From Telopea speciosissima (taxonomy: Eukaryota; Streptophyta; Magnoliopsida; Proteales; Proteaceae), in contig NC_057925.1 of the NCBI RefSeq assembly GCF_018873765.1, forward strand, positions 19,727,568-19,791,567: DNA of 64,000 nt, in the 5' to 3' direction. Positions within the stretch are counted from its first letter, which is position 1. Each line of letters starts with the position of its first letter. The position numbers and the translations under genes are program-made. The notes under the pieces were generated by a model. The model saw nothing but the letters and a program-made list of their open reading frames with translations. It was not told where the DNA came from and made no database searches. Shown here in pieces: positions 3,257-62,741 of the stretch.

Positions 3257-3537
3257 CATGTCGATGCCCTTGTGTGCGCTCTCATTGCCACTTATTCAAG
3301 GGCTACACAACCAATCAACGATCTCTTGCCCATGTTTTAAATACACCTATAGAGGTGTCATTCAGGCAGCCCCAAGTTTAATACTACAGCCATTCATGTT
3401 GATGCCTTGTGCGCGCTCTCATTGCCCCTCGTGCTAATGTAGGGGCTACACGATCAATCAACGATCTCTTGCCCATGTTTTAAATACACCTATAGAGGTG
3501 TCATTCAGGCAGCCCCAACTTTAATACTACAACCATT
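3257..3537. repeat. two-copy tandem duplication of a 140-bp unit
   Basis: 3257-3394 and 3395-3537 are two head-to-tail copies. Both begin CATGT(C/T)GATGCC, run through a CAACGATCTCTTGCCCATG stretch and end with a TTTAATACTACA block and CCATT. Divergence is a few per cent plus small indels. No coding content is evident. The overlapping plus-strand open frames reflect the duplication. Confidence 0.85.
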
Positions 3538-4524
3538 ATCATAAGTTAGTTAACACTTGTTCTTCTAGGGTATACTTATGCACCCCTAAAGCAATCCGTT
3601 CTGGGGCAGGGTGGTGATTGCTGATCCTAATACAGTTATTTCACTATTGAAGTGAAGTTTGAATTATATTCTACAAGTGGCAAGGAATAACTGAGATGGC
3701 TTCCATCCCATCCTATTAATAAATCATCACCCGTTAGGGTGTTACCTGAATGGAGATGGGAATGCAGCGAAAGAGGATCTCATACAGGTTTGGTTACGAG
3801 CTTCATGGACTCGAGCAATCTCCTTCACATCTTCGAATATCTGGAAAGGTTTCTCCACGAAGAAGAGCTCCACATCACAAATCCCTGGGAAGAGATGGAA
3901 TCCCAAAGAGAACACAAAAAACTGGAGAGAGCGAGAATTTGGTTTCTCAGATGATGTGGTCTTAAGGTTATAGGCTTTCTATTTAAAGCCAAAACCCTAA
4001 GACTCCTGCCCCTATTTAGGCTCCCACTAGGAATCGATCTAAGAGGGGGGGAAGAGACCCAGCCACTTAAGTGGCTGGTTCTCTCCACGCGAAGCGGGTC
4101 GGGTCGGGTCCGGCCTGCCCCTTGTGGATGGCTTGGACCTGGCCTGCCCCGTTTTCTATTTACACATCCAAACGTCAATAAAGCTCTAGCGTGCAAGATT
4201 CCATTATACGGCACTGGTTTGTATATCATTTCCCCAAAAAAAATTATTCCAAATTTTGCTTGAATTTGTTTTGCTAATTTGAGAATTTGATAAAAAGAGG
4301 GGGGGGGGGGGGAGGGGAGAAAGTTTTCCTTCACCCATGGAGACCCATGGAGAAGGGTTCACCCAAAAACTTACCGTCATCATTACTCCCCCTAGTAGTT
4401 GAAGGATCAAAATGCCCTTCACTGTTGCCAAACACCCATCCAAGTGCAATGATGGTGGTGGCTTAAGAGATACCTCATTCAACCATAGTAAAAGAAAACT
4501 TGGTCCAAACACAAAATAAAAATT
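3538..4524. other. intergenic DNA, possible old LTR-like sequence, G-run
   Basis: About 3595-4160 has the look of an old LTR or leader: a short AAAGCCAAAACCCTAAGACT stretch and a GGGTC-rich segment near 4095-4120. I could not find a partner copy, primer site or target duplication, so no call is made. A G-rich run lies at about 4297-4318. No gene is recognised; open frames on both strands lack family features. Confidence 0.4.
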
Positions 4525-43838: not shown

Positions 43839-46680
43839 AACTCCCTCTCAGACTCACAAGGGGGGACCTGCCATGCCTGCAATGCTTTTGTAAAAATTGT
43901 GCTTTACTTTGGGTAAAGCCTTGATCATCATATCTGCTCCGTTCTTGTCAGTATGAATCTTTTCAAACTGCAAATGTTTCTGCTCTAGTACATTTCATAT
44001 CCAGTGATACCTTACATTGATGTGCTTGGTCTTGTAATGGAAACTTGAATTCTTAGTTATGTGGATAGCACTTTGACTGTCGACGTACTTGTCTTGCTTT
44101 AGACCTAGTTCTTGAGTGAACCGCTTCATCCATAACATCTCCTTACAAGCTTCTACAATAACTATGTACTCAGCTTCTGTGGTTGATAAGGCCACACATT
44201 TCTGTAACTTGGATTGCCATGACACTGCTCCCCCTACAAAAGTAAAGAGGTATCCTGATGTGGATTTCCTCGAGTCAATATCTCCTCCCATATCTGCATC
44301 TGTGTATCCCTGCAACACAGGTTTTCCACCTCCAAAGCACAAACAAGAATTAGTTGGACCTTTAAGATATCTTGTAACCCATTTCACTGCTTCTCAATGC
44401 TCTTTGCCTGGGTTAACAAGAAATCTACTTACAACTCCAACTGCATGTGCAATGTCCGGTCTTGTACATACCATGGCATACATCAAGCTCCCTACTGTTG
44501 ACGAGTAGGGTATATTCTTCATTCCAATTCTTCCTTCTTCAGTTGAGGGGCTCTGGTCACTGCTCAACTTGAAGTGGCATGCAAGTGGAGTACTTACATG
44601 CTTTGCTTTGTCCATATTGAACCTTTCAAGTACCTTCTGCACGTACGTTTCTTGTGATAGCCATAGCTTGCCGGCTTTTCGATCACGGGAAATCTTCATC
44701 CCTAAGATTTGTCGTGCGTGCCCCAAATCCTTCATGGCAAAGGACTTGCTCAATTCTTGCTTTAACATGTCAAAAACATAGAGCAAAAGAATAATAAAGT
44801 TATTTTCTGAAAAGTTCTTAACAAATACACAATGGTCTGATGTTGTTTTTGTATACCCATGATCCATCATGAATGAATCAAATTTCTTGTACCATTACCT
44901 TGGTGCTTGTTTCAAACCATATAAGCTTTTTCTTAACCTGCAGACCATGTGTTCCTTACCCTTGACTTTGAAGCTTTCTGGTTGCTCCGTGTAAATTTCT
45001 TCCTCTAGATCACCGTGGAGAAAGGTTGTTTTTACATTAAGTTGATGAACTTCCAAGTTCATACTTGCAGCCAGACTTAACATTACTCGTATGGATGACA
45101 TTTTTATTACGGATGAAAAAATTTCATCAAAGTCAATACTTTTCTTTTGCCCAAAACCTTTCACAACCAACCTTGCTTTGTACCTTGGTTGTGGGTTGTT
45201 CTCTTCAGTCTTTAATTTGAACAACCATTTGTTCTTGAGTGTCTTCTTACCCTTAGGTAAACTTACCAGGTCATAGGTATGGTTCTTATGCAGGGAGTCC
45301 ATCTCCCGCATAGCTTTTAACCATTCAGCCTTGTGCTTATCAGCTTTTGGATCTTCGAAGCACTCTGGTTCACCAACATCTGTTAGTGTAATATATTGAT
45401 GAGGTGGATACCTGGTAGATTGTTGTCGCTCCCTGGTGGATCTTCTTAACTGGGACTCAACTGGTGGCTCTTAAGTCACCTGCTCCTCCTGTTCACCATC
45501 ATTGGTACCATCTGTAGGAGCATCATTTTCACCATCGACATCACCGGTTGCATCTTCAACGCCATCTTGCGCATCTACCCCATCATCATGTGCCATGGAT
45601 GGAGAATCTGGATCAAAATCCATAAGGTCATCAATGAACGACTGAGATTTTTCAATCTTGTCAAAGTCTTCAATTGTTTGGTCTTTAAGAAAGACCACAT
45701 CTCTGCTTTTGATTACCTTCTTCTCAACCGGATCCCAAACCTGTAACCAAACTTATCATTAGCATATCTTAAGAAAATGCATTGTTTAGATTTGTCATCA
45801 AGTTTGGACCGTTTGTCTCCTGGAACGTGCACGAACGCTCTGCAACCGACCACCTTCAGATGGTTGTAGGATAGGTCTTTTCCGCTCCATACCCGATCAG
45901 GAATATCTCCATTCAAAGGAGATGATGGAGATAAATTAATCAAGCAAACGGCTGTCCGCATGGCTTCTCCCCAGTATCATCGTGCCAATTTTGCATGTGA
46001 AAGCATGCATCGGATTCTTTCTATAATGGTGCGGTTCATCCTTTCAGCTACACCAGTATGCCGTGGGGTCTTGGGAACTGTTTGTTCATGTCGAATTCCA
46101 TGGTCTTTGCAGTACTCTTCAAATGGACCAATGTCCTCACCACCATTATCAGTATGAATGCATTTGAGAGGTTTTCCTGTTTCTCTTTCAACAGTAACAT
46201 GAAATTGTTTAAATACACCAAAAACTTGATCTTTAGTTTTTAATGCAAATGCCTACACTTTTCTAGATGCATCATCTATGAAAGTAACAAAATAAGACGC
46301 ATCACCAACTGATTTTACTTTCATAGGTCCACAGACATCAAAATGTACCAATTCTAAGACGTCTCTTTTCCTTTGGGGAGAACTTTTGTTGAAGGTAACT
46401 CGGTGTTGTTTACCAACTAAACAATGAACACAGCGGTTTAGGGACGTACCTTTAATGTTTGGTAAAAGATTACCTTTTGTGAGAATTTGCATCCCTTTCT
46501 CACTCATGTGGCCAAGTTGCCGATGCCACACGTCCGTAGTGGATTCATCCTCCGTTGTGTTTATTTCAACCTTGCAAATTTGCACTTTTGTTTTGTACAA
46601 AGTGCAACACTTACTTCCCTTTGCCATCACAAGAGATCCTTTGGTAAGCTTCCATCGACCGTTACCAAAGTGATTGTGAT

Positions 46681-47393
46681 AAAGGTTCTAAGACTTGGGT
46701 CTCGGTGGCATCTCAGCCAAGCCAGAAACCGAGTCGAGTCGAGATCTGTCCGAGATCTTGGCGAGTTGCTGCATTTTATTTTTTTTTTTACTCGGACCCC
46801 CAACTCGGTGGGTTTTACACATATTTTGGGTCTGAAACTTGGTTTTCAGCCTATTTCAGGCCATTTAAACATAATGACATGCCCAGATTTGCCAAAAAAC
46901 AAGTCCAAAAATGAGTTTTACTTTGGAATCCTATAAATAGGTGATGATTCTTATTCTTGGACTGTTGGAGTTGAATCCTCACTGTAGCACTTGAATCTCA
47001 CTTCAAACAATGCAATCCACCTAAGATTTGAAAGAAAGAGGAAGAAATTTGAGGGAGAGAGTTGTTTGAGTGTTTTCCCCTTTGTTTAGAGAGCTATGGA
47101 CAGAACTATTGACATTTTCGAGTTCTGTCCGTTGGCCTCTTTTAATAAAAATGGGCACATGGATGGGTAATTAAAATGGGTAAAAACCATGTTCTAACCC
47201 GATACCGAGATCTCGGCGAGATGTTGAACTTTTAAAACTAAAAAAAAAACTGGAAAAAATGTGTATCGAGACAATACCAAGATCTCGCCGAGAAAGTGTA
47301 ATTTTAGAATGCGTATGGCGTCTCGTCTCGGGATCTCATGAAACCGAGAAAATCGGCGAGATCTTGGCGAGATCTCGCGAGTTCTCGAACCAT
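46681..47393. mobile_element. 713-bp non-autonomous DNA element inside the copia interior
   Basis: Ends AAAGGTTCTAAGACTTGGG (left) and, in reverse complement, ATGGTTCGAGAACTCGCGAG (right). Flanks are GATTGTGAT (46672-46680) and GATTGGGAT (47394-47402), one mismatch in nine, and copia protein similarity continues on both sides. The element is studded with GAGATCTCGGCGAG-type words in both halves. The 9-bp duplication suggests a Mutator-type MITE. It landed after the copia element did. Confidence 0.8.
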
Positions 47394-48578
47394 GATTGGG
47401 ATATCCTTCTTCATCTAATTTTCCTGTAGAGATTAAATTTAAACGGACGTCTGGTATATACCTCACGTCCTTGAGAACCAATTTACAGCCAACATTTGTT
47501 TCAATGCTTACATCACCCATCCCCATAAGTTTTGAGGTGCCACTGTTGCCCATTTTTACAACACCAAAATTACCCATTTTAAGAGAAGTAAAAAATTCTT
47601 TGTGAGGGGTAACATGGTAAGATGCACCTGAATCGATGACCCAGCTTGAGTCATTGCATGCGAGGGTGAGACAAGATTTTTCACAGCTCGAGATGATGAC
47701 AATGTCTCCATCTAAGCTCACGGCAGTGGTGTCGTTTTCTTCTTTCTTGTCATCCTAGTTCTCTCTTTTTGCTTTGAGCTTTCTGTAGTCCTTTTTCATA
47801 TGTCCTACCTTTTTGCAGTAGTAACATGTGATCCTTCCTTTTGACTTGGATCTTCTCTGTGACTTCTCACGATCTTGTGGTCTTCTGGTTCTGCTTCTCC
47901 CTCGGCTTTCCGTGACAAGTGCCTCTTGCTGAGACAACCTCAAAGATTTTCTCCTTGTCTCATTTTCCAATAAAGCCGTTGTCACCTCATCAACTTCGAG
48001 AGTGTCTTTTCTAATCAATAGGGTAATCACTAGTGTATCAAATGAAGATGGAAGAGAAGCCAAAAGAAGAAGAGCTTTATCCTCATCTTCAATTTTTATT
48101 TCAAGGTTTAACAGTTGAGTAACAATTCTATTAAAAACATTTAGATGATCCATGAGGTTAGTTCCTTCTTTCATCCTCAATTGATATAATTGTTTTTTCA
48201 AAAACAATTTATTTGTGAGGGATTTTGACATATATAAACTTTCAATTTTTAACCACAATTTAAGAGCAGAGGTTTCATTCAACACATTATACTTTACCTC
48301 AAGTACGAGACATAAGCGGATGGTACTTACTGTCTTCATTTCATGTTCTTCCCAGTCATCATCAGACATGGATTGTGGTTTATTGGCTTTGCCAGACAAT
48401 GCTTTGAACAACCCTTGTTGCACCAAGATGTCTTTGACCGTGCTTTGCCACAAACTGAAGTTATTTTTGCTATAAAAAAGCTCCATGTCGAACTTATCCA
48501 TTGAGATTCCTTTTCCAGTCATCGTATTGCAATCAAGCTTTTACACATGTTCACGCGAGCCAAGGTTCTGATACCACT

Positions 48579-49150: not shown

Positions 49151-49785
49151 CAATCTTTGTTCCTCATCTATCAGTCATAGTTGTCAAAGCGTTGTCTATG
49201 CGTCACTTAGGTGTCCAGGCAGAAAATCTGGGCCAAAGCAAGCTGTTGCATTATTGCCCATGACACTTTGGTGTCGGCAGCACATGCTCACCCCTGCGAC
49301 TCGACAGTTGACTCCCCTACTCCTGAGAAGAAACCAACAACGGAAATACTGCCACTGCCATAGCAGCAGTGGCAGCAACGTAATACTAGAAGAAGATGAA
49401 GATGGAAGGAGGGGGAGGTGGAAGAATGGAAGATTGAAGAAGCAGTAGTAATGGCAGCCAAACAATTGCCGCTAATGAAGAGCTGTTGCCGGGGCCACTG
49501 CCACATCATCATTGCTATCATAAAAGAAAAAAAGAAGAAGAAGAAAGAGGAGGGAGCATACCTGTTTGAGTTTCCAGTGCCGCTGCCACTCCATTCAATG
49601 TTGTCGCAGCCTTGTCGAGAACATGCAGCCATAGAGTCGCAATTATGCATATAAGCACATTTCAGTGAGGATGAATGGTTTTTGCTCCGCTATTCCCTTG
49701 GACCTTCGGTCCCGCTTCTAGAATTGATCGAGAATGCCCTCAACTCCCCCCTTCTTTAAGATGATGTTTGTTTATCTTATTTTAT
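49151..49785. other. intergenic DNA between DUF247 pseudogene and Pack-MULE
   Basis: Purine-rich AAGAAGAAGAAG tract at about 49530-49555. A CCCTCAACTCCCCCCTTCTTT block near 49737 recurs near 51573, and less well near 51528, on the far side of the Pack-MULE. No gene recognised. Confidence 0.45.
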
Positions 49786-49902
49786 AGTGAAAATTATGTG
49801 TACACCCCTGTACTTTGCCTAAAACATTAATAAATCCGAGGTTTCCAATAACCACCTTGTACACCCCCTCATTTAGAAAAAAAAAAAAAAACACAAAAGA
49901 AG

Positions 49903-50083
49903 GATCCAGATCCTCTACTGCCGAGCTGCCCGGCAGGACTGTGCTGCCTAGATACGGTGCTGCGCGCAATGACCGCATTATCCCTACTCGGACAAAGCAT
50001 TTGGGCAGGGGTAAGGCAGACATTGCGCTCAACACCATGTCTGGGCAGCACGATCCTGCTGGGCAGCTCGGCAGTAGAGGATC
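49903..50083. mobile_element. foldback MITE inside the left arm of the Pack-MULE
   Basis: Inverted ends: GATCCTCTACTGCCGAGCTG near 49909, and its near-perfect complement ending at about 50081 (CAGCTCGGCAGTAGAGGATC). The inverted match extends for about 40 bp. Comparison with the Pack-MULE's right arm shows the insert is absent there, between an A-rich ACACACAAACAA stretch and TAACAGTCC. A target duplication could not be fixed because the site is A-rich. Confidence 0.7.
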
Positions 50084-50282
50084 CAAATTGCAAAAATAAC
50101 AGTCCATTAGCAACTCAACGTTAAGACATGACGTGGAGGATAATTTGGACATGAAATGGCTCTTATACCCTCCTGTGTCTGAGTCTCCTCCCCCACTTTG
50201 GCAACCGACCTTCTCCCTCTCCGGCTCTGCAACTCTCTCCTTCCCCTCTGGCCCCCTCTCAGTTTCTCTCACTCTCCAACCG

Positions 50283-50475
50283 GCAAAAGCAGAACCGGCA
50301 TTCCTTCTCCAAGACGAGGCCAATAAGGCCCTCCTCCTCGACCCAAAAGACTCCACCGCTCACATCCTCAAAGCCCTACCTCTTGATCCGCAGGGCCACG
50401 AATCTTCTCAGATCAATCGGTATCGCTCTCTCTGCACCAGCCGTCAAGACTCTCTCCGAAATATCAGACTCACAC
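50283..50475 (+). pseudogene. captured fragment of a TPR-like host gene
   Basis: In one frame (50283-50409) the peptide reads KAEPAFLLQDEANKALLLDP and continues KDSTAHILKALPLDPQGHES. After a one-base shift it continues SIGIALSAPAVKTLSE. This matches a helical repeat pattern (A...L..DP.D..AH.LKALALD.QGH, then a next helix ending SAPAVKTLSE) that I recall from plant tetratricopeptide-like proteins. Only about 64 codons are present and the frame is shifted, so it codes for nothing useful. The parent gene is not in this window. Family recognition is from memory and moderate. Confidence 0.5.
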
Positions 50476-51162
50476 TTCCTCTGGTGTTCTTGAATTGGCT
50501 CCTCAAAGCTTCTGCTCTGATTTTAAAACATCTTGTGGCTGAACATCGATGAATATGGGAAAAACGGTTTGACCATTGGATAAATGGCATTCCCCTATCT
50601 CAGAAAGTTCCAATAGGCAATATATGCTATCTGCGTAGTGTTCAGATAAGACAGGAATCAAGATTCTGGACCCTCGGATTGCTCTTAGAAGCGATGGGAA
50701 AATCTCTTCTCCTTCCCAAAGTTCTTTGCTCTCTATGAAGGCTAAATTCCTTCTCTTGTTAAAGAATCGTAAAAGTTTTCGCGAGTATCTACAGCTCTGA
50801 AATTAATAAACACATCGTAAGAAGAAGGCTGGCGGGAGAAAGCAGATGAAGACGTAGCCCGTGATGATGAAGCCATGAACTTGCAGTTGCAGAGATATTG
50901 GGGAATGGGCAGCCCTCTTCTTTTTTCTTGTTAGACTTGAGGAGCTTCATTGCTACAAAAAGTGAATTTGAAAGTCTAATCTGTGCATGTGAAGGTGTTT
51001 TCTTTTTATCTCCTTGCCAGAAAAGGATGCGTTTCTTCTGGAAGCTGCATGAAGACAAACACAGTTAACCTTTTAATGGTACTAATGCCGTGCCATAGCT
51101 AAACAGTTGTCCTATAGCAGTTCTGCTACTTGTCTGTCTCATTTTCTCTTCCTTTGTTGGAT

Positions 51163-51243
51163 ATGGCGGAAGAAACGAAATTTTGGGTCGTCCGTTGCCC
51201 TAAGTGTGAGAATCTGCTGCCGGAGCTACCAGATTACACGGTC
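51163..51243 (+). pseudogene. captured N-terminus of an EDR4-like gene
   Basis: Starting at an ATG, the peptide reads MAEETKFWVVRCPKCENLLP then ELPDYTV. The VRCPKCENLLPELPDY block is the conserved N-terminus of plant ENHANCED DISEASE RESISTANCE 4 and its relatives, where it continues YQCGGCG to complete a zinc-ribbon-like site. Here similarity stops after PDYTV, so the second Cys pair is missing. The open frame runs on into unrelated sequence and then into the right inverted arm (113 codons from an upstream ATG at 51130). In whole genes the protein restrains clathrin-linked EDR1 defence signalling; this fragment is far too short for that. Confidence 0.65.
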
Positions 51244-51663
51244 CTATGCTTGATTGAAGCTTTTTGGGTAGAACAGAGACACAGATTTGGGGAAGACGAT
51301 GGTTATTGGTTTGTTAAGGGTGTTATGAAAGGGTATAATAGTCATTTCATGTACAAAGTATACTCCATGTCATCACTTAATGTTGAGTTGCTAACGGACT
51401 GTTATTGTTTGTGTGTTTTTAAAAAACAAGGGGGTGTACAAGGTGGTTATTGGAAACCTCGGCTGTATTAATGTTTTAGCAAAGTACATGGGAAGTATAA
51501 TTTTCCCTATCTATTATATTAATTCCCTCAACCCTCTCCCCTTTCTTTAATTAATATTTGTGGCAGAGTCTATTGAGGATACCCTCAATCCCCCCTTTCT
51601 TTAATAAGAGATTTGTTTATCTTATTTAAATATTAATATTCTATTTTATTATAACCAAAAGGA

Positions 51664-52329: not shown

Positions 52330-54329
<2,000 letters not shown>

Positions 54330-56275: not shown

Positions 56276-57661
56276 TTAGGGCTTCTTGGAGCTGTCTTTG
56301 TTGTTGTTGTTGCGAGGGAAGACTGTGTAATATGTTTGAACCATGGTAAGCAGGAGAGCCAATGCAGTAGCAACTAAGGCAATGACAGTCCATGGGTTAC
56401 GGAAATATTTCTCTCGCAAATTAGTCATGCAAGAAGTCCTTGCAATGACATTTCGCCATTGGTTGTAGTACATCTCAATGCTGCAGTAAACATCTCGATA
56501 CTCATTTGGATTTGGAACCAAGTTGGTAGCCAAACCATTGAAGTGATCAGCCACCTCTTCGTCGTTTCTAACTAAGTTAAGGAGTATGCCCTTTGATCTC
56601 AGCTCTTTCACATCTTCGGCATCATCAATAAGTCCATCCATGAAACAGATGTAAGAGTTAACTGTTAAGTCATTAGGGAAATCAGGGCATGCTTCATAGG
56701 CAGCAAAGTTCAAGAGCATAGTCATAGTTAAGTCATCCCCAACAATTGGAGGAAGGAACAGATCTCCATTCAAGTTGTTGAACCTAACATCCTTCAAGCT
56801 TGAACTATTCCCTTTATTGAATTTAATCCGCCCAGCCCTAAGTTCTGTGACTGAACGGAACGTATACCACGTATACAAGCTGCCTGATGTCTGTGGAGAT
56901 TTCGGCTGTAGTACTGTGCCAACAAGCTCGTTCCGAAGAAGGTCAAGGATATGAGGGGGATGATCACGTTTCTCCATGGAATGTCGGTAATAGAGAATAC
57001 TTTGCATCTTGATGAATTTGTGGACCACCTCTTCTCCGTCATTTCCAGGAATGTTCAAGCTCATCAATGCCTGGAGAACTACAAAGGGGATTTGGTTCTC
57101 CAACAAGAATATGTCTCTTATTACAAAAGCTATTTGGTAGTTATGCATCTTTGTATCCTCGAGCTTGTTTTTCATCAGGCAATCAATGAAATGGAGGAGA
57201 AAACAACTGTCCAGGAACATCATGCTAATGAATTCTGCGTTGCTGAACCGAGCGATTGATTCCTCATCATAACACTCCCTCGCATCATGAGCCACCTCAT
57301 CGAATTTGTAGAAATCTTTAAGGTCTCTCCCCATGACCAACTGCTTTGCTATTGTGATCTTGAGCTTCTCCAACATTGCAAGCTTCGGGTTGCCATGGTG
57401 ATAAGGACCAAATGTGACCACCATAGGATCAAAGTGTTCCTTGTTTTTCTTGATGTCACGCAGAATTGCTGGAACCTTGTGCATTCGGGGCTTTCTCGGA
57501 GATTGATGTGTTTCTTGCTGGCCACTGTCGGCCAATACCATCAGCAAACACTCAGGCTGGGAGCTCGATATCTCCATGTTAATAGGAGTCGTTCTCTCAC
57601 ACCCATCAGCCATAATGGCAGGTTTGATGTTGCCTCTGCTTTCTTGTTGGATTTCTTCCAT
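56276..57661 (-). CDS. intact DUF247 (PF03140) membrane-anchored protein
   Basis: Single-exon gene, 461 codons; start ATG at 57661-57659 conserved in copies 3 and 5. Marks: PMVVTFGPYHHGNPKL at residues 79-94, MMFLDSCFLLHFIDCL at 147-162, LLENQIPFVVLQALMSLN at 186-203, LLNFAAYEACPD at 316-327, CFMDGLIDDAEDVKELRSKG at 339-358, and a C-terminal membrane segment at about 423-446 (WTVIALVATALALLLTMV) with a short polar tail (FPRNNNNKDSSKKP). No signal peptide; probably tail-anchored. Biochemical role unknown for the family. It is the only intact member of the right-hand array, so it may retain the function its neighbours lost. Upstream 1.2 kb is shared with copies 3 and 5, so the promoters were duplicated with the genes. 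Confidence 0.93.
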   Translation of the reverse strand: MEEIQQESRGNIKPAIMADGCERTTPINMEISSSQPECLLMVLADSGQQETHQSPRKPRMHKVPAILRDIKKNKEHFDPMVVTFGPYHHGNPKLAMLEKLKITIAKQLVMGRDLKDFYKFDEVAHDARECYDEESIARFSNAEFISMMFLDSCFLLHFIDCLMKNKLEDTKMHNYQIAFVIRDIFLLENQIPFVVLQALMSLNIPGNDGEEVVHKFIKMQSILYYRHSMEKRDHPPHILDLLRNELVGTVLQPKSPQTSGSLYTWYTFRSVTELRAGRIKFNKGNSSSLKDVRFNNLNGDLFLPPIVGDDLTMTMLLNFAAYEACPDFPNDLTVNSYICFMDGLIDDAEDVKELRSKGILLNLVRNDEEVADHFNGLATNLVPNPNEYRDVYCSIEMYYNQWRNVIARTSCMTNLREKYFRNPWTVIALVATALALLLTMVQTYYTVFPRNNNNKDSSKKP

Positions 57662-59663
57662 GATCTTCTTGTCTTGGGCATCTTTAATATAGAAACTAAA
57701 TGGCTTTCTTTAATGCTAGCCAGGAATCTGTGGCTTTCTCTTTTGCTAGGGAAGTAGTTTCAAGGCAGGGATAAAGATATTATTCCAATGGACACTTCTT
57801 TATGCGTTCTGCATTTTAAAAATTTACATTTGCTTCATTCCTTCCTTTTGAAATGTGTACTCGCACTGTGAAGGGTGACTCAGACTTAGTTTGGAAAATC
57901 CTTGCATCACCAACAGTTAAAAAATTATGAGGAAGATTTCCTCCAGTAGGAGTTAAAGGATATTTAAGAACAGAGCAACCTTTTCTGCCCCAAAGAGGGA
58001 TGATTTGGTCATTCTGAACTTTGGGTTGACACTGGATGGGGAATGCTCTTGGTTTGTCAGTCCAATTTAATGGCCCATACCAAATTTTTTGTGCTCCATG
58101 CAGTGGATTCTTTATATTATACTTTCAATATTCCAAAACTTTCAAGAAATTCCATGATCTCTCTCATTAGGAAACTAATTATCCTAATCAAATTTCATAA
58201 AAAAATTATACTAATTAAGTAATTAACAATTCCATTCTTATGGTTATGTTGATGAATGTTAAATACTGTAACTTTTCAACATCACTCATTTTATCAGTGT
58301 ACTGACATTAAGAGCTAAAAATTAGGAAGAAAAGAAAGAAATCAATTAATATAATTGAAATCCATTCCACCAGCAAACTACTTAATGAACATATTTAGCT
58401 ATGATGAAAGAAATGTACCTATTGTTTAAATGTTGTTTATAAACTTTGAATTATTGATGTGTGAAATAGAAAATGCATGGCAAAATGGAAATTGGAACAC
58501 ATTAACCCAACCTTTACAAAGGGGAGATGCAGGTGATTTTTTTTTTTTTACTCTTCATGAATCTTAATATAGCGAGATTGATCTAATGTACTTTGACCCT
58601 ATAAACAGGGGTAAGGCTGCGTACATTTGACCCTCCCCAGACCCTGCTAAACGCGGGATCCTTGTGCACTGAGTACTGCCTTTGATCTAATGTACTTTGT
58701 GAAGAAATTATCTAGAAATACAGTATGGAAGTCCCAGGGATGAAATTGCATGCTGTCAAAAATTCGGAACCAAGGTAGCATCCTAATGCAAAATACAGAC
58801 CATTCTATGCAAAAAGGAGCTGGCATTCCATTTGGAGGACATTGGATACCCATCATATATTATGCTAGAGGAATATGGAAATGCTAACCTTGTAGATTCT
58901 ATGATGTCACATTCCAACCACATGCATGCAGGGATGAAATCATTTTATTTTCTATTTCTTCTATTCTATGAGAAGATCTCTTGTGACATATCTAGGTAGG
59001 TAAGATGGTCACAGTCATTTATTTGAAGTTAGCAAAACCCAGATCTCTACATTTTCCTCAACTTTTTTGATGGGGAAATCAAGGTAGTTTTTAGGAAAAA
59101 AATTTAGATATATCTTTGAATAATGTTTCGAAGGAAGAGGGTTTTCGATGCTGCCTATGAAGGGGGAATCTCCCACGACAATTGAGGTAGATGAAATTGT
59201 TTGGGCTATAAGAACCCACATGGTTAAGGAGGAAAGATAGTGTAGGGAATGTGAGAGGGCATGGAAAACCATTCCCCCACTTATAGTATTAGCTGACTGG
59301 ATTATTGATCGTTGTACAGAGACCATCCATGGTGCTTTGGTTATGAATGGATGAAGGGTGCCTGTTCTTTTTACCACCCCCTACCCCTCCTCTTTTCACC
59401 ATGCGGACCTGATCCACGAGGATCAATCCTCAATCTTCAAAACTCATCTCTCTCATGCTTTCAAATGCCCTCCTTCCCTTCAGTTGCTCTGAATCCAAAC
59501 ACAAATGGGAGCAGAATCACAATATAGGATAAATATGAAAAATATATTATCCAAGACATTCATACAGCAAGATCAAAACACCTGAATTATAGGTAAAAAA
59601 ATTATCCCAATTTCATTTTGGGCCGGGAGGAGAAGACATATTTTCTAAGATGAAATTGTAGTT
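57662..59663. other. upstream segment of DUF247 copy 4 and flank of copy 5
   Basis: 57662-58950 is the duplicated upstream block; it is closest to 62742-64000 (about 95 per cent by eye). 58950-59663 is the downstream flank of copy 5, matching 55785-56230. No gene recognised; open frames are on decayed duplicated DNA. Confidence 0.7.
58596..58681 (+). mobile_element. 5'-truncated Au-like SINE with 18-bp target duplication
   Basis: 86 bp matching only the 3' half of the Au-like SINE (CAGGGGTAAGGCTGCGTAC, CCCTCCCCAGACC, GTGCACTGAGTAC). Flanked by TTGATCTAATGTACTTTG at 58578-58595 and 58682-58699. The tRNA-like half is absent, so it was truncated on insertion. Confidence 0.85.
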
Positions 59664-61411: not shown

Positions 61412-62741
61412 TTAGTGCTTCTTGGAGCTGTCATTGTTGTTGCTAGGGAAGATTGCGTAATACGTTTGAACCATGGTAAGCAGGAGAGCCAATGCAGCAG
61501 CAACTAAGGCAATTACAGACCATGGGTTACGGAAATATGTCTGATGCATTTCAGCCATCCAGGTCCCTACATTGCTGTTGTAGTGCTTTTCAATGCCACT
61601 CTTAACATCTCGATAAAGCTCAGGGTCCGGCACCAAGTCATTTGTCAAGTCATTAAAGAGATCAGCAACTTGCTGGTCGCTGCCAAGTACATTGTGAAGT
61701 ATTCCTTTTAATCTCAGCTCTTTCACATCCTCTGCGCTATCGATGAGAGAATCCAGGAAACAGATGTAAGAGGCAACGGTGAAGTCGTCGGAAGCATCAG
61801 GACATGTTTCATATGTTACCAAGTTTAACAACTTGGGCTTGGTTGAGTCATCTATGACAATAGGAGGTAGTAGCAGATATCCCTTGAAGATTCCACTTTA
61901 GAAACTGATATCCTTTAGGCTACAAGTAGTACTTCTCTTGCACACAATACGCGATGCTTTAAGCTCAGTGACTGCACGAAATGAATCCCAACCTTCCAAA
62001 TCTGTGTTGGTGGCGGTGTCGCCATCTCTTGCTCGAGACACAGGCCAAATGTGGGAGAAAAGTGGCCTCTTGGAAGGTGCAGCACGGACTAGTTCGTTCC
62101 GAAGTAGGTCGAGGAGATGAAGGGGTTGACTGTCTTCATGTGATGGAGGATTGCTGGGGAAGATTGTTTGCCTTTGAATGAATTTGGTGATCAATTCTTT
62201 TGAATTGTCTTCACCGTATCTCAAGTTCATCTTTGTATCCTCGAGCTTGTTTTTCATCAGGCAATCAATGAAATGGAGGAGAACAACCGTCCAGGAACAT
62301 CATGCTAATGAATTCTGCGTTGCTGAACCGAGCGGTTGATTCCTCGTCATAACACTCCCTCGCATCACGAGCCACCTCATCGAATTTGTAGAAATCTTTA
62401 AGGTCTCTCCCCATGACCAACTGCTTTGCTATTGTGATCTTGAGCTTCTCCAACATTGCAAGCTTGGGGTTGCCATGGTGATAAGGACCAAATGAGACCA
62501 CCATGGGATCAAAGTGTTCCTTGTTTTTGTTGATGTCACGCAGAGATGCTGGAACCTTGTGCATTCGGGGTTTTCTCGGAGCTTGAAGTGTTTCTTGCTG
62601 GCCACTGTCGGCCAATACCATCAGCAAACACTCAGGCTGGGAGCTCGATCTCTCCATGTTAATAGGAGTCATTCTCTCACACCCCTCAACCATAATGACA
62701 GATTTGATATTGGCTATGCTTTCTTGTTGGATTTCTTCCAT
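61412..62741 (-). pseudogene. DUF247 pseudogene, tandem copy 5
   Basis: Start ATG at 62741-62739 (MEEIQQESIANIKSV). The first 150 codons match copy 4 closely. A 2-bp deletion near 62282 then shifts the frame inside MMFLDGC. About 30 residues containing the LLENQxPF motif are deleted after LEDTKM (near 62230), and a stop codon falls near 61898. The rest is well kept, with LLNLVTYETCPDA, CFLDSLIDSAEDVKELRLKG, VADLFNDL and a C-terminal membrane segment WSVIALVAAALALLLTMVQT ending SSKKH at 61412. Apart from the three lesions the gene is close to copy 4 in its first half but clearly more diverged in the second half, where it is nearer to copy 1 in places (LGSDQQVADLFN), hinting at past exchange between copies. 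Confidence 0.88.

Follow-up and report, generated by a model that had tools for sequence, protein, structure and literature searches.

An old, decayed Pack-MULE carrying pieces of three host genes in Telopea speciosissima

Pack-MULEs of rice, maize, Arabidopsis, and tomato have long inverted ends, family-level 9-bp duplications, and no transposase within. They hold fragments of unlinked host genes and are 1-2 kb in size (definition and tomato sizes, PMC3310237). The terminal inverted repeats of MULEs are typically 100-500 bp long (PMC3310237). Gap filling and template switching are among the models discussed for such capture (PMC8277862), and effects of these elements on expression and small RNAs are reported in other species (PMC13317346; PMC4858842). 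In the open-access collection searched, no paper links Mutator-like elements with EDR4, although published work may lie outside that collection.

The tomato PM-ZIBP family is a comparable case from a dicot. It is made up of several copies and carries a fragment of a zinc-ion-binding gene. In PMC3310237, tandem inverted repeats are described for 13 of the 14 PM-ZIBP members, and one captured gene is named. Multi-locus Pack-TYPE elements are also alike in having interiors drawn from several loci, conserved ends, and changing middles, although the examples in PMC8903248 are of the CACTA, hAT, PIF, and Mariner types and come from rice and maize.

The element described here lies in a 64-kb stretch of the Telopea speciosissima assembly (C10:19727568-19791567; 822.9 Mb in 1287 contigs). 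This whole stretch is called the window, and positions are those of the window unless a contig (C) or locus (L) is named. The element shares the features of the Pack-MULEs above and differs from them in nothing of kind. It stands out in packing three gene pieces, one of them antisense, into 1.7 kb, in having a MITE in its left end, and, compared with PM-ZIBP, in having single ends. The locus is an ordinary, old, decayed Pack-MULE; the kind is well known and the copy is new.

Limits, inverted ends, and family

The Pack-MULE, a non-autonomous Mutator-like element, occupies 49787-51507 (unstranded) and is 1721 bp long with the nested MITE counted. It is defined by paired inverted ends with the terminus GTGAAAATT/AATTTTCCC and by a family sharing similar ends. 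Both limits are set by the family terminus. An earlier note on this DNA had placed a single 1.7-kb unit at 49786-51512, and the single unit stands with slightly narrower limits.

By arm comparison, the left terminal inverted repeat is composed of an outer part at 49787-49899 (+) and an inner part at 50092-50171 (+), and the right terminal inverted repeat lies at 51330-51507 (-). The repeats are ~180 bp long, with left and right arms ~82-83% alike. The pair 50092-50171/51330-51409 matches at 86% and the pair 49819-49899/51399-51479 at 83%; further outer pieces also pair. The inverted repeat is continuous once the nested MITE is left out of the left end. The long inverted ends seen in the earlier note are one pair, split by this insertion. 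Arm identity is 81.7% in the window copy. Of nine other elements measured, eight are higher (84.5-91.2%) and L052 is lower (78.3%), with the arms of L052 and L062 aligned over part of their length only.

The MITE is palindromic and lies at 49900-50091 (unstranded; limits approximate), with 77-bp arms that are 84% complementary. Elsewhere in the genome, at least 16 near-full-length copies and one partial copy are present among the 40 of 2460 candidates that were scored. Three sister elements, S1 (L009), S2 (L010), and S3 (L011), are without the MITE at the corresponding point. MITE-related sequence is also seen near TIR-domain matches on C9, at L016 699-1024 and at C9:46470941, ~460 bp before the TIR match.

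Inside the inverted repeats are sequences of the element itself. The left sub-terminal sequence (50172-50283, +) is common to sisters without the TPR piece described below; it is delimited by left-end matches and by the S1 and S2 matches, which run to element positions 498 and 492. The right sub-terminal sequence lies at 51244-51329 (+) and, from 51283 on, is also present in elements where no EDR4 piece was found.

The family is large. Used as a DNA query of the genome, the right inverted repeat gives at least 41 matches (40 of 177 candidates scored). The 34-base family terminus, searched with at most three mismatches, gives 45 forward and 40 reverse matches, 85 in all, and a reversed control gives 0 and 0. 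The two ends of the window copy are absent from these 85 matches, being too diverged for a limit of three mismatches. Many family ends come in closely spaced pairs that face inward and enclose other interiors, which marks the ends of the window copy as one pair too.

MULEs make target-site duplications of 9-11 bp. These were sampled in 20 end pairs including the window copy, ten taken from the end-match lists and ten already in hand. With the terminus fixed, at least eight of nine flanking bases are identical in 8 of the 20 pairs, compared with 3 of 380 mismatched pairs; a 1-base shift raises these counts to 10 of 20 and 8 of 380. One of the eight well-matching pairs consists of T only. Two rows of the sample are S1 and S2, seemingly a single insertion that was duplicated along with its flanks, and the rows of L074 and C11:34918451 are badly anchored; none of these four rows is among the eight. 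Flanks match poorly at C3:27912 (3/9), C7:2236840 (5/9), and C3:470856 (6/9). The 9-bp target duplication of the Mutator superfamily is present at the family level. The window copy is not among the eight: its flanks, TATTTTATA and TATCTATTA, are identical at 6 of 9 bases. Because 66 of the 380 mismatched pairs equal or beat this value, its own target duplication is not recognisable.

A transposase-bearing element with the family ends was not found. By eye, no MULE domain among the 150 scored (from 828 candidates) lies inside a found pair of ends, in a search that covered 40 of the 177 end candidates. In three longer copies, L073 (9.6 kb), L074 (3.8 kb), and L095 (5 kb), no transposase frame was recognised by eye at minimum frame lengths of 100, 70, and 80 aa, respectively. 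The frames of L073, and some of those of L095, look by eye like parts of retroelements, presumably of Copia type in L073; two L095 frames have no Pfam match above the cut-off. A 266-aa frame in L074, which we take to be F-box-like from its appearance, gives only kelch matches in Pfam, all sub-threshold.

Several features adjoin the element. A 76-bp direct repeat, 75% alike, is found in both flanks (49720-49795 and 51565-51640) and is possibly a tandem repeat that predates the insertion. Frames judged by eye to be of Copia type lie at 44394-48540 (-), where 44895-45470 has an RVT_2 domain. A DUF247 cluster adjoins the element, with three frames on the minus strand (52877-53329, 56276-57709, and 61412-61897), one of them near full length (E 8e-93).

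Captured pieces of three host genes

The earlier note proposed a Pack-MULE with pieces of two unrelated genes, EDR4-like and TPR-like. Both pieces are borne out, with unrelated parents, and a third piece on the minus strand, from a TIR-domain gene, had been missed. The closest parents lie on C5 (TPR), C9 (TIR), and C1 (EDR4). Paired ends, a family with the same ends, and host-gene pieces with parents uphold the Pack-MULE identity.

The TPR-gene fragment (50313-50459, +) is made up of coding sequence only, has one 5-bp deletion, and is 83.6% identical to its parent at C5:4587425-4587576. The parent is a single open frame of 228 aa with TPR domains in Pfam. The window piece is frameshifted relative to this parent, and the 150-aa frame of the region has no Pfam match. 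Four genome-wide candidates match the piece, all scored: the window copy, S3, L031, and the C5 gene. The piece lies beside family ends at three places, one of which is the window copy. At L031, which is one of these TPR-piece loci, a frame at 3285-3794 sits just inside another family end and has only sub-threshold Pfam matches, of coiled-coil type.

The TIR-domain piece (50460-51009, -, including 50503-50930) is the 5' end of its gene, with the first ~430 bp of coding sequence and ~140 bp upstream of the first ATG. It is 82% identical to C9:54149137 (L016) and antisense to the TPR and EDR4 pieces. The Pfam TIR domain is matched at 50503-50802 (-) with E 1.5e-19 and in the L016 parent frame with E 2.6e-41. 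The C9 gene reads through this stretch in a single frame; the window piece is spread over two. The parent is probably a TNL gene, judged from the TIR-encoding stretch, which is the only part of the C9 gene seen. The boundary between the TPR and TIR alignments is at ~50459/50460, with an overlap of nine bases (50451-50459). Further upstream sequence of the TIR gene may be present at 51070-51099 (-), beyond ~60 bp that are inserted compared with L016. There, from L016 1137 on, three exact matches of 11-12 bp follow one another closely and almost collinearly, each with E 0.14-0.55 when taken singly. They do no more than suggest that the TIR piece continues to about 51099. Within an element, the TIR piece is seen in the window copy alone.

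The EDR4-like piece begins ~15 bp past this possible end. It is composed of 5'UTR or upstream sequence at 51115-51162 (+), identified by alignment to the parent, and the first 27 codons of the gene at 51163-51243 (+). The whole piece (51115-51243) is 86.7% identical to the C1 gene (C1:84477818), which has a paralogue at C6:66403423. The Pfam domain EDR4-like_1st is matched above the cut-off (E 6.4e-8), and the downstream frame of the C1 parent holds the EDR4 zinc ribbon (E 3.6e-21). Six genome-wide candidates match the piece, all scored: the window copy, S1, S2, L015, and two genes. It lies beside family ends at four places, including the window copy.

The EDR4 start opens a frame of 102 codons (51163-51471, +; stop at 51469-51471) that continues into the element's sub-terminal and inverted-repeat sequence. 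From stop to stop the same frame has 117 codons. The ATG, the in-frame fusion, and the run into the inverted end are as first described in the note, which gave 113 codons for the frame.

Sister elements and formation of the unit

The sister elements that the earlier note asked for were found; they share the ends and vary in their interiors. S1 and S2 are single units of 1.3-1.6 kb in which the EDR4 piece is enclosed by the left and right ends known from the window copy, and their interior has other sequence where the window copy has its TPR and TIR pieces. A 218-aa minus-strand frame in this interior (L009 774-1430) has no significant Pfam match. The two lie on C6 at 60.14 and 62.05 Mb, 1.9 Mb apart and in opposite orientation, with flanks 92-94% alike and element lengths ~280 bp apart. 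They are apparently an inverted segmental duplication of one Pack-MULE insertion. Both pieces, TPR and EDR4, are present in the window copy only; EDR4 alone is found in S1, S2, and L015, TPR alone in S3 and L031, and neither in the others. L015 and L031 have a single family end in the stretches examined. Among the genome matches to the window element and its pieces, the exact three-gene unit was seen nowhere else. Other members carry other genes: leucine-rich-repeat pieces are present in L045 1904-2590 (-), above the Pfam cut-off, and in L062 1922-2110 (-), just below it, and a piece of an auxin-responsive gene is present in L052 2040-2282 (+).

The locus is very probably an old, immobile Pack-MULE that gained its host-gene pieces stepwise, then decayed, and now most likely has no host function. 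The element would once have been mobilised by a transposase supplied from elsewhere. Genomic DNA would have been taken up between its ends in steps, as a TPR piece, the 5' end of an EDR4-like gene, and the 5' end of a TIR-receptor gene. The likely route is that unlinked DNA was copied, either in gap repair or by template switching: the closest parents are on C5, C9, and C1, all of them chromosome-size contigs different from that of the element, and non-coding upstream DNA is included; both the TIR and the EDR4 pieces carry sequence upstream of the ATG. Later decay would account for the diverged ends, the MITE in the left end, and the lost frames of the TPR and TIR pieces.

The pieces may also have been brought together by exchange between TPR-bearing and EDR4-bearing elements, following the model in which Pack-TYPE insertions that lie side by side fuse (PMC8903248). 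In favour of it, all four combinations of the two pieces are seen, with a single family end found at L015 and at L031. Against it, the left and right ends of the window copy both match S1 best among the 27 loci compared. This match leans weakly toward one lineage with both pieces, in which TPR was later replaced in S1 and S2; the test is weak because the four best left-end scores are close (320, 305, 302, and 299 bits). Exchange is possible but rather unlikely. The idea of two separate solo inverted repeats around ordinary gene debris, with no single element, draws on the unrecognisable target duplication of the window copy. It is rejected as having next to no probability: in the sisters, a single unit contains the EDR4 piece together with both ends, and many family members are close, inward-facing pairs. 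The ends are thus not two solo repeats, and the parent genes exist.

The earlier note suggested a chimeric peptide or small RNAs against a defence gene; all that speaks for either is the open frame of the window copy and a number of shared 21-mers. In favour of a short protein of 102 codons, transcribed and kept by selection, the ATG and the 27 EDR4 codons are intact, and both S1 and S2 keep these 27 codons, and the fused frame as far as codon 39, free of stops. Silent and replacement codon differences from the parent EDR4a stand at 5:1 in the window copy and 3:0 in S1. Past codon 39, a 2-bp indel separates the S1 and S2 frame from that of the window, and the L015 frame is shifted. Counted from the EDR4 ATG, a stop is reached after 50 codons in both S1 and S2 and after 23 in L015, so the frame is not conserved among the EDR4-carrying copies. 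S2 has three silent and two replacement differences from EDR4a, and the silent changes may belong to the parent's own branch. The L015 counts (5 silent, 6 replacement) are set aside because its frameshift inflates them. With 26 codons, too few changes, and problematic branch assignment, a case for coding selection on the EDR4 piece was rejected; the codon counts decide nothing on selection, as 26 codons are too few. A selected chimeric protein is highly doubtful.

Element transcripts could instead give rise to small RNAs on EDR4 and, by way of the antisense piece, on TIR-type receptor genes. The TIR piece is antisense to the other two, and captured sequences, Pack-MULEs included, are reported as siRNA reservoirs in maize (PMC13317346). 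Exact 21-mers shared with the parents number 25 of 526 for TIR (L016), 6 of 109 for EDR4a, and 4 of 140 for TPR. Identity to the parents is only 82-87%, however, and perfect small-RNA sites are therefore few. Such a role is improbable. A wider form of the idea, in which a TE-borne chimeric locus linking three host genes, two of them immunity-related, acts in trans and its antisense TIR and sense EDR4 small RNAs tune both families, is very unlikely. The family may repeatedly sample immune-receptor DNA, since two further members hold leucine-rich-repeat pieces.

Meaning for the family

An old Pack-MULE that most likely does nothing for its host now is the favoured account, and the element gives no grounds for proposing a novel gene or regulator. 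Its close parents and partly overlapping sisters lie in the same assembly, which makes the order of capture, and the choice between gap repair and neighbour fusion, testable. The locus offers a clear illustration, from a Proteaceae genome, of how a Mutator-like element can take up several genes step by step.
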